Positions 52,989 to 53,934 of a stretch of 64,000 nt of DNA are shown piece after piece (the first letter of the stretch is position 1; each line of letters begins with the position of its first letter). This stretch comes from Bradyrhizobium sp. sGM-13 (GTDB lineage: Bacteria; Pseudomonadota; Alphaproteobacteria; Rhizobiales; Xanthobacteraceae), in the NCBI RefSeq assembly GCF_018398875.1, contig NZ_JAGWDK010000021.1, positions 1 through 64,000 on the forward strand. The letters run 5' to 3'. The position numbers and the translations under genes were made by a program. The notes under the pieces were generated by a model. It saw nothing but the letters and a program-made list of their open reading frames with translations, searched no databases and had not been told where the DNA came from.

Positions 52989-53309
52989 TGGTGCGGGCGG
53001 CCGGACTCGAACCGGCACAGAGGTCACCCTCCGAGGGATTTTCTTACCAGCTACGGCTTTCGCCGCCTCGCCAGACATCCGCGCTGGCTCGTTTGTGGTC
53101 TGGACTATACCTTCACCATTGGCGCGTTCGTGCCTTTAGGTGCTGCCCGTCTAGTCTCTACACCTTCGCACTAACCGTTAGGTTCGGGCGCTTGGCTCGG
53201 GATTGCCATATGAAAGGTTTCCCCGAATTTGAGCAGTTCTACAGCTTGGGTTTCCCCAAGAGCACTCAAGCGTTTAAGTCCCTTGCGTCTACCATTTCGC
53301 CACGCCCGC
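52989..53309 (-). tRNA. tRNA-Leu(UAA) interrupted by a group I intron
   Basis: The 5' exon (53309-53276, 34 nt) and 3' exon (53042-52989, 54 nt, CCA encoded) together make an 88-nt tRNA. The acceptor stem GCGGGCG / CGCCCGC is perfect. The anticodon stem AGGGA / TCCCT closes a CTTAAAA loop with anticodon TAA. The variable arm is long (GGAGG-GTGA-CCTCT) and the T arm GCCGG-TTCGAGT-CCGGC is perfect. The intron lies between anticodon positions U34 and A35, the site used by cyanobacterial and plastid tRNA-Leu(UAA) introns. The same strand continues into the TMEM175-like gene 145 bp on. Confidence 0.95.
53043..53275 (-). ncRNA. Group I intron in the tRNA-Leu(UAA) anticodon loop
   Basis: This is a 233-nt self-splicing-type group I intron. 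The 5' exon ends in U (ACTT) and can pair with the internal guide GAGT, giving the U-G pair of P1. The P/Q region is TTCGGGGAAACC with AATCCCGAGC. The R region GTGTAGAGACTAGACGG pairs with the S region GTATAGTCC through the perfect P7 helix GACTA / TAGTC. The last base is G (TGGTAAG), the expected terminal guanosine. There is no open reading frame for a homing endonuclease. The layout is very close to the cyanobacterial tRNA-Leu intron. Confidence 0.93.
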
Positions 53310-53496
53310 TTTCACCAGAAGATCAGATACTTAGCGCGTTTTCCGGAGAAGTGGAATTGGGATAATCTCCGGCCCAAACGCTCCCCACCTTTAAGTGAGC
53401 GCGGGCGCAGAAGCAAAGCCTCAATGCGGACACTTGGGGTGTTTACCTGCGGCGAGCTTTAGGCAATCTCAAGATAATCCACGTAACGAAGGTCCG

Positions 53497-53934
53497 ATGC
53501 CCAACTCGCTGTCCCATCGCCGGTTATTCTCGCGCAGCCTCGCGGCGTTGGCGCTGGTTGCGCTCGGTTCGGGCCTGTCCGGATGTGCGGGCATGAGCGA
53601 CACCATTTCGCCGGCCTTTGCCGATCCCGCCAAATACGATCTCTACGATTGCAAGCAGCTCGAGACCGAGCGCAAGAGCCTCGCGACGCGCACCGCGGAA
53701 TTGCAGGGACTGATGACCAAGGCCGAAACCGGCGTCGCCGGTCCTGTGGTGGCGGAGCTCGCCTATCGCAACGACTACATCGCGTTGCGCGGACAGTCGA
53801 AGCTGGCCGATGAAGCCTGGCAGAAGAACAGGTGTCAGGAACCGAAACCGGAAGCCAGGCCGGCGCCGGTCCCGCCATCGATCGTCGCTCCCGTTGCCAA
53901 GGGTCGTACGAAGGCAAGCCAGTCAGCAAATTAG
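53497..53934 (+). CDS. Small lipoprotein of unknown function
   Basis: This 145-aa protein has a signal with a lipobox (LALVALGSGLSGCAG, Cys at about residue 28). A helical, charged region KYDLYDCKQLETERKSLATR and VVAELAYRNDYIALRGQSKL follows, then a Pro/Ala-rich tail (about 115-145). The family is widespread in Bradyrhizobium as far as I recall but has no known function. The ATG at 53497 is chosen because it starts the signal. Confidence 0.75.
   Translation: MPNSLSHRRLFSRSLAALALVALGSGLSGCAGMSDTISPAFADPAKYDLYDCKQLETERKSLATRTAELQGLMTKAETGVAGPVVAELAYRNDYIALRGQSKLADEAWQKNRCQEPKPEARPAPVPPSIVAPVAKGRTKASQSAN

Follow-up and report, generated by a model that had tools for sequence, protein, structure and literature searches.

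A group I intron in a Bradyrhizobium tRNA-Leu(UAA) gene, with relatives carried on integrase islands

The anticodon loop of a leucine tRNA gene in Bradyrhizobium sp. sGM-13, at positions 52989-53309 of the 64,000-nucleotide stretch analyzed here (the window), raises the question of whether an alphaproteobacterium carries at this site a group I intron like that of cyanobacteria and plastids and, if it does, where the intron came from and what the cell owes to its splicing. Our best explanation overall, to which we give a probability of about 0.93, is that the locus is a tRNA-Leu(UAA) gene with a splicing group I intron, resident at the usual locus of the genus and belonging to a proteobacterial lineage of tRNA introns that appears to move by allele exchange and, in relatives, on islands.

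Analysis of the window confirmed that the minus strand of 52989-53309 is a tRNA-Leu(UAA) gene interrupted by a group I intron. The features of the locus are as follows:

52989-53309, minus strand: tRNA-Leu(UAA) gene with group I intron (88 nt of tRNA and an insert of 233 nt)
53276-53309, minus strand: 5' exon of tRNA-Leu(UAA), to U34 (34 nt; exon join)
53043-53275, minus strand: group I intron, 233 nt, last base G (RF00028 match; splice sites from the exon join)
53264-53267, minus strand: guide sequence GAGU of P1, partner of exon ACUU (pairing by sequence reading)
53245-53260, minus strand: P2 hairpin CUUGGG-GAAA-CCCAAG (sequence reading)
53231-53236, minus strand: 5' strand of P3, partner 53143-53148 (two-sided changes in 5 of 6 pairs)
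53196-53227, minus strand: P4-P5, with P4 strands 53222-53227 and 53196-53201 (covariation and sequence)
53150-53156, minus strand: 5' strand of P7, GACUA, then GA (P7 paired in 99.4% of alignment cells)
53111-53142, minus strand: P8 region, CACC/GGUG (paired in 99.0% of cells)
53100-53107, minus strand: 3' strand of P7, UAGUC, then CAG (covariation and sequence)
52989-53042, minus strand: 3' exon of tRNA-Leu(UAA), from A35, with CCA encoded (54 nt; exon join and fold)
53395-53934, plus strand: divergent small lipoprotein-like ORF, a marker of the usual tRNA-Leu(UAA) locus of the genus (sequence likeness)

The exon join sets the insertion point between U34 and A35 and, as the preliminary description had claimed, the exons form a full tRNA-Leu(UAA) once the 233 nt between these positions are removed: ARAGORN calls the joined exons tRNA-Leu(UAA), and they fold into a complete cloverleaf with a long variable arm at -41 kcal/mol, a value equalled by 4 of 200 shuffles. 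Without its intron option ARAGORN reported no tRNA in the 64-kb window, and the intron accounts for a tRNA-Leu(UAA) gene being overlooked by a plain gene finder. The group I assignment was borne out by the Rfam covariance search, where RF00028 matched 53286-53088 on the minus strand with 55.2 bits (E 2.7e-11), above the gathering cut-off of 50 bits; it was the sole RNA family to pass its gathering cut-off in the 64 kb. In P1, ACUU pairs with GAGU and a U.G pair marks the 5' splice site; P7 consists of GACUA and UAGUC, and the terminal base of the intron is G. P1, P7 and the terminal G lie where they had been placed at the outset, and every detail given of them holds. The window copy has no endonuclease gene within the intron, a putative member of subgroup IC3.

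The core was then examined by covariation, using an alignment of 100 intron sequences, the window's included, fitted to R1, a dedicated core model built on Bradyrhizobium introns, and scored at 25 named pairs of P3-P8. These pairs (P3, P4, P5, P6, P7 and P8) are standard in 98.4% of cells compared with 86.4% in shuffles, and they show 252 two-sided changes compared with 45.6, a number that 0 of 500 shuffles reach. Two-sided changes are present in 16 of the 25 pairs, and pairing drops to 26-47% when the strands are slid by one to three columns. The P7 pseudoknot, paired in 99.4% of the cells of this 100-sequence alignment, has no pairs in the R1 structure, so that structure did not force its strands together. 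Taken alone, the minimum free energy of the unspliced precursor did not stand out from chance (z -1.42, with 7 of 100 shuffles folding equally well); the folding program is unable to draw pseudoknots.

How common such introns are was addressed by a census. In the genus, RF00028 with strict filters found 26 introns in 23 of 146 Bradyrhizobium genomes, all in tRNA-Leu(UAA), and each of the 26 copies, pattern-cut at the same two exon edges, gave tRNA-Leu(UAA) by ARAGORN. Two forms can be told apart, a long form a of 232-239 nt (12 copies), the type that includes the window intron, and a short form b of 204-213 nt (14 copies). R1 matched in 31 of the 146 genomes, the extra 8 having weaker matches only; the copies of seven of these (L222-L228) were read and all are decayed or cut, each consisting of intron remains and a tRNA 3' half, and L222 adjoins an integrase fragment. 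At E <=1e-3, R1 matched in 30 of 198 genomes of the family, 49 of 385 of the class and 41 of 398 of the phylum; these draws overlap, and weak matches as well as introns in other tRNAs are counted. In named genomes a pattern scan gave at least 118 stretches; the R1 core is present in 44 of the first 80 and in 12 of 38 others. Among the matches listed, the core lies in tRNA-Leu(UAA) in the alphaproteobacteria Bradyrhizobium, Phenylobacterium, Caulobacter, Brevundimonas, Methylocystis and Pelagibacterium, in the gammaproteobacteria Thioploca, Thiohalophilus and Thiotrichaceae, in the Bacteroidota Arsenicibacter and Larkinella, and in cyanobacteria. The preliminary description had implied rarity, recalling from Proteobacteria only introns in tRNA-Arg(CCU) and tRNA-Ile(CAU); that impression has to be given up, as Leu(UAA) introns are widespread there, though patchy. 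The reading of the window intron as a lone curiosity was likewise dropped, given 23 of 146 genomes in the genus, scattered Alpha- and Gammaproteobacteria and two Bacteroidota.

Other host tRNAs were also encountered. With exons read by eye, the host tRNA at 73 loci (L249-L321) is in most cases Leu(UAA), followed by Arg(CCU); the same intron family occurs less often in tRNA-Thr(GGU) (L270-L272, L299, L300), tRNA-Lys with UUU or CUU (L288, L294, L296, L297, L301), tRNA-Arg(UCU) (L314) and one CAU tRNA (L320, L321). ARAGORN's anticodon calls are often wrong with an intron present, and L256 and L273 gave no tRNA. We know of no report of such introns in tRNA-Thr or tRNA-Lys. In five gammaproteobacterial or related Leu(UAA) introns the core seems to be split by an insert of about 400 nt (L096, L129 and L155 by eye; L189 and L196 from paired model matches). 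The insert of L096 (2308-2772, minus strand) contains a reverse-strand ORF of 154 aa with a weak HNH_3 match of 20.2 bits, below the cut-off, and the ORF is therefore a likely homing endonuclease inside the intron.

The origin of the window intron was approached with a tree of 100 cores over 140 columns, fitted to the Bradyrhizobium-built R1, a possible bias; the program cautioned that columns were few, that the bootstrap was unsettled and that long branches met at the branch with support 100/97. That branch splits 23 rows from 77. On the smaller side are the 10 cyanobacterial Leu introns sampled, which form one group (support 100/99), together with nine gammaproteobacterial Leu introns, three Lys introns from the window's class and one Arg(UCU) intron, while the larger side holds every alphaproteobacterial Leu intron along with ten Arg(CCU), three Thr(GGU), one Lys, the CAU pair, two gammaproteobacterial Leu and two Bacteroidota introns. 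Ancestry was further probed with AU tests, which gave p 0.015 for all Leu introns as a clade, p 0.004 for Bradyrhizobium forms a and b together and p 0.016 for form a alone; from these results, several lineages of the intron seem to be present in the genus.

The link to the cyanobacterial intron that the preliminary description had hinted at needs correction: the insertion site is shared, but in the free tree the core falls with alphaproteobacterial introns. A direct transfer of the cyanobacterial tRNA-Leu(UAA) intron would explain the identical site, and the AU test does not reject a clade of cyanobacterial and all alphaproteobacterial Leu introns (p 0.18); however, the free tree separates the two across the 100/97 branch and places the alphaproteobacterial Leu introns with those of Arg(CCU) and Thr, and the AU test marginally rejects a clade that unites cyanobacterial Leu introns with Bradyrhizobium form a (p 0.048). 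We consider such a transfer improbable, and a direct cyanobacterial source is disfavoured: the window intron groups, not decisively, among the Leu, Arg and Thr introns of alphaproteobacteria and away from the cyanobacterial ones.

Some relatives of the window intron sit on integrase islands. In genome G117, a tyrosine integrase of 459 aa lies between the 5' half of a native intronless tRNA-Leu(UAA) and a complete intron-bearing tRNA-Leu(UAA); the 5' half adjoins a lipoprotein ORF that by eye resembles the one in the window, and the native 3' half is on a different contig. This integrase has a PHROG integrase match (E 3.8e-25) and no Pfam match. The same order of 5' half, integrase and intron-bearing gene was observed in B. 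lablabi (L090, which is G024:C83), Phenylobacterium (L081), Caulobacterales (L134), Pelagibacterium (L168), L187, where the gene is incomplete at the end of the stretch, and several further genera. Native 3' halves were found by exact pattern in 8 of 17 chosen genomes, and ARAGORN saw no intact tRNA at any of these 8; that of G017, with one base missing, was found by BLAST, and G719, where the 5' half is present, gave no 3' half, its contig ending 17.6 kb further along.

When the split genes of nine genomes (G117, G017, G024, G345, G436, G229, G212, G662 and G213) were rejoined, all nine gave tRNA-Leu(UAA). The acceptor stem, rejoined in eight genomes, has 7 of 7 pairs in seven of them and 6 of 7 in G024, whose mismatch is also found in the intronless allele of relatives; 56 cross-combinations of halves average 4.5 pairs and reach 7 in three, two of which join G117 and G017, genomes with identical acceptor ends. 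An A5-C68 acceptor mismatch is common to the intronless Leu(UAA) alleles in 14 of 20 fetched Bradyrhizobium loci (L322-L335). In G017, G345, G436, G229, G212 and G213 a single contig holds both halves, with roughly 15 to 40 kb between them, and in G117, G024 and G662 the halves are on different contigs. Both halves share the core ACTTAAAA, which comprises the 7-nt anticodon loop CTTAAAA and one further base; the shared core is longer in some genomes and exceeds 20 nt in G662. Seven is a usual overlap length for tyrosine integrases. The intron site, U34/A35, falls within this crossover core.

This integrase family lies at most 700 nt upstream in 17 of 79 distinct alphaproteobacterial Leu(UAA)-intron loci with at least 700 nt of upstream DNA and in none of 83 intronless Leu(UAA), 10 cyanobacterial, 11 gammaproteobacterial and 2 Bacteroidota loci, nor is it matched anywhere in the loci of 28 introns in other tRNAs, the sets being taxonomically unmatched, with flanks of unequal length and intron class assigned by pattern. 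At a threshold of E 1e-30, 14 of the 367 genomes searched in the class have the integrase, as do 19 of the 146 in the genus, often with no adjoining intron. Of 50 integrase loci fetched, several being fragments of a single integrase, 41 were searched with R1; a core was found in 11, of which L363, L379 and L388 are decayed or weak. As for cargo, all five proteins chosen from three loci match phage-defence models: a DNA methylase and a DpdJ-like helicase in L248, PycTIR-like and E1-E2-like proteins in L244, and a PDC-S60-like protein with DUF4062 in L342. Two loci have a related integrase beside another, intronless leucine tRNA; L375 shows a split native tRNA-Leu(CAA) 5' half, an integrase and then a complete intronless tRNA-Leu(CAA), and L354 an integrase and then a complete intronless tRNA-Leu(UAG). 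In G043, the displaced half of an intronless gene is found about 2 kb past an intron-bearing gene. Insertion of the intron and 3' exon alone is too simple for this case, since about 110 nt upstream of the intron-bearing gene also differ from the intronless relative.

The surroundings of the window copy are of another kind. The lipoprotein-like ORF lies upstream of intron-bearing and intronless loci alike, among them 19 of 20 additional intronless ones. Upstream, the flank of the window copy resembles that of intronless relatives (74% over 1,247 nt to L236), and its downstream flank is 85% like that of L037, which in turn matches that of the intronless L327 by eye. Between L037, with intron, and L327, with none, both flanks are common, and the intron and parts of both exons differ. 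A 41-row flank tree was built with 19 of 20 additional intronless loci; L322, lacking upstream DNA, and L043, a long row, were left out, and L333, L334, L329 and L336 are long rows that remain. On this tree intron-bearing and intronless states alternate with 7 changes, at least 3 of which are forced for form a by the starred branches. A single intron loss, as read from the first flank tree of 23 rows, was dropped because of this alternation, and the simplest reading of these sequences would be an exchange of whole tRNA alleles at one locus. Exchange of tRNA alleles of this kind was reportedly described in cyanobacteria (Rudi et al. 2002). The lineage appears to move between strains by tRNA-Leu allele exchange and, in relatives, on integrase islands.

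That the window copy itself sits within an active integrase island is suggested by relatives of its intron on such islands; yet no integrase match is present within 700 nt upstream of it (locus L001) or anywhere in the window, no displaced tRNA-Leu half lies in the window, the upstream flank is that of intronless relatives and the downstream flank that of L037 and the intronless L327, and the integrase homologue of its own genome is on contig C40, beside a degenerate initiator-Met-like copy, all of which makes an active island at this locus very improbable. A search of the whole genome by exact pattern found no displaced 3' half either. The homologue on C40 (L353, 10304-11560) is 58% like the island integrase, has no internal stops and adjoins the degenerate tRNA. 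With an upstream flank as in intronless relatives, no such integrase in the window and no displaced half, the window copy is best read as resident and element-free. Two other form-a copies, L047 with an integrase remnant upstream and L044 with a displaced half, at most suggest island delivery as an earlier route.

With the gene placed, we turn to what the cell makes of it. The splicing chemistry of group I introns is known, and from that mechanism the window intron should splice itself out of the leucine tRNA precursor: the transcript would fold into the group I core, a guanosine in P7 would attack after the U.G pair of P1, and the freed 5' exon would then attack after the terminal G, yielding a mature tRNA-Leu that reads UUA. 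The source genome (8.31 Mb in 574 contigs, completeness 100) has 49 RF00005 tRNA matches, and its leucine anticodons according to ARAGORN are CAA, UAG, CAG and GAG only; an exact-pattern search for an intronless UAA 3' half found none. The claim that the cell depends on this one gene thus agrees with the search, by RF00005, ARAGORN and the 3'-half pattern, which found no other tRNA-Leu(UAA) gene, although an assembly of 574 contigs might conceal one despite its completeness of 100. UUA is rare yet used: across 44 window ORFs that were picked greedily and may include some that are not genes, it accounts for 22 of 16,304 codons. Under standard wobble rules no other leucine tRNA reads it. As no other UAA gene was found, growth should need splicing, and the cell should depend on it. 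An additional cluster of Gly, Phe, Ala and Asn tRNAs occurs at about 1850-2253 of contig C66 (L066, L073, L075), a 15-kb contig of this genome; it is perhaps of phage or plasmid origin.

Elsewhere in the genus, 20 of the 23 intron-bearing genomes have no full-length intronless tRNA among the matches listed in a BLAST search with the spliced tRNA, which reach E about 5e-10, with six candidates per genome scored; G027, G054 and G116 have both an intron-bearing and an intronless tRNA-Leu(UAA). At L048 the native tRNA looks decayed (by eye) and adjoins the intron-bearing copy, which together with the 20 genomes suggests that intron-bearing copies of the genus work. Some strains of a large soil-bacterial genus seem to make an essential tRNA solely by way of a ribozyme. 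The idea of a dead intron, a relic that broke the tRNA gene and lost splicing while another tRNA came to read UUA, was dropped as hardly credible: decayed copies are known in the genus (L222-L228), but the exons, core and splice sites of the window copy are all intact, its spliced exons are identical to those of L034, L035 and L038, and it is the only UAA gene found in the source genome.

The position of the intron within the crossover core led us to a tentative proposal, against which we put the odds slightly. Tyrosine-integrase islands of alphaproteobacteria would recombine at the 7-bp anticodon loop CTTAAAA and leave the essential tRNA-Leu(UAA) split, while the intron-bearing tRNA-Leu(UAA) of the island would keep the host alive. 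Since the intron lies inside the core, it may shield the replacement: it would cut the 7-bp core in two, so that neither the integrase of the island nor those of rival islands could target the replacement. Resident copies like the window's would then be domesticated survivors, giving the host an island-resistant gene as its only UAA gene. Counter to this, 62 of the 79 distinct alphaproteobacterial Leu(UAA)-intron loci are without this integrase family within 700 nt, and the family is not tied to the intron, its core being found in 11 of 41 loci. Related integrases also lie beside intronless tRNA-Leu(CAA) (L375), tRNA-Leu(UAG) (L354) and CAU tRNAs, so that an intron is not needed in general. 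The proposal can be tested at the bench, with the intron within the crossover core and the integrase and intron-bearing replacement on the same element.

Taken by itself, the window intron is a further member of a known family. The cyanobacterial and plastid tRNA-Leu(UAA) intron is like it in tRNA, site and core plan; in the core tree, however, the 10 sampled from cyanobacteria stand together in a group apart (100/99), and the window's lies among alphaproteobacterial introns. A gammaproteobacterial tRNA-Leu(UAA) intron from the deep subsurface is said to have been reported by Vepritskiy et al. in 2002, and like the window's it lies in the tRNA-Leu(UAA) of a proteobacterium; 9 of the 11 gammaproteobacterial Leu introns sampled are on a separate branch, and at least L096 has the reverse-strand HNH-like ORF. 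The alphaproteobacterial tRNA-Arg(CCU) intron of Agrobacterium and Bartonella is, like the window's, patchy in its presence, and the core tree places Arg(CCU) introns and the window's in one large group, but its host tRNA and insertion site differ. Its splicing has been demonstrated in Bartonella (PMC7717549). What deserves attention here is that intron-bearing and intronless alleles of an essential tRNA alternate at one locus within a genus. In the open-licence PMC literature searched, we found neither an alphaproteobacterial tRNA-Leu(UAA) intron nor an integrase island with an intron-bearing replacement tRNA; absence is not proven by this, and as far as these searches go the intron lineage and its islands are undescribed.

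The islands can be compared with Islander-type genomic islands in tRNA genes (PMC4383910). Both have a tyrosine integrase, a tRNA target and a displaced fragment at the far end; the present islands differ in leaving the native gene in two halves and providing a complete intron-bearing tRNA next to the integrase. The closest parallel to the shielding proposal comes from archaea, where gain of a tRNA intron through attP, to the profit of the element, is described by Sugahara et al. 2012 (PMC3293823); a protective role was put forward by Randau and Soll, as cited in PMC4390854. There, as in our islands, a mobile element delivers a tRNA intron that may block further integration; the archaeal case differs in having another splicing type and in concerning one population, whereas here a bacterial group I intron lies in the crossover core in several genera. 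With these islands, the long-standing notion of tRNA introns as guards of their genes against integrating elements gains a concrete bacterial case that can be put to the test.
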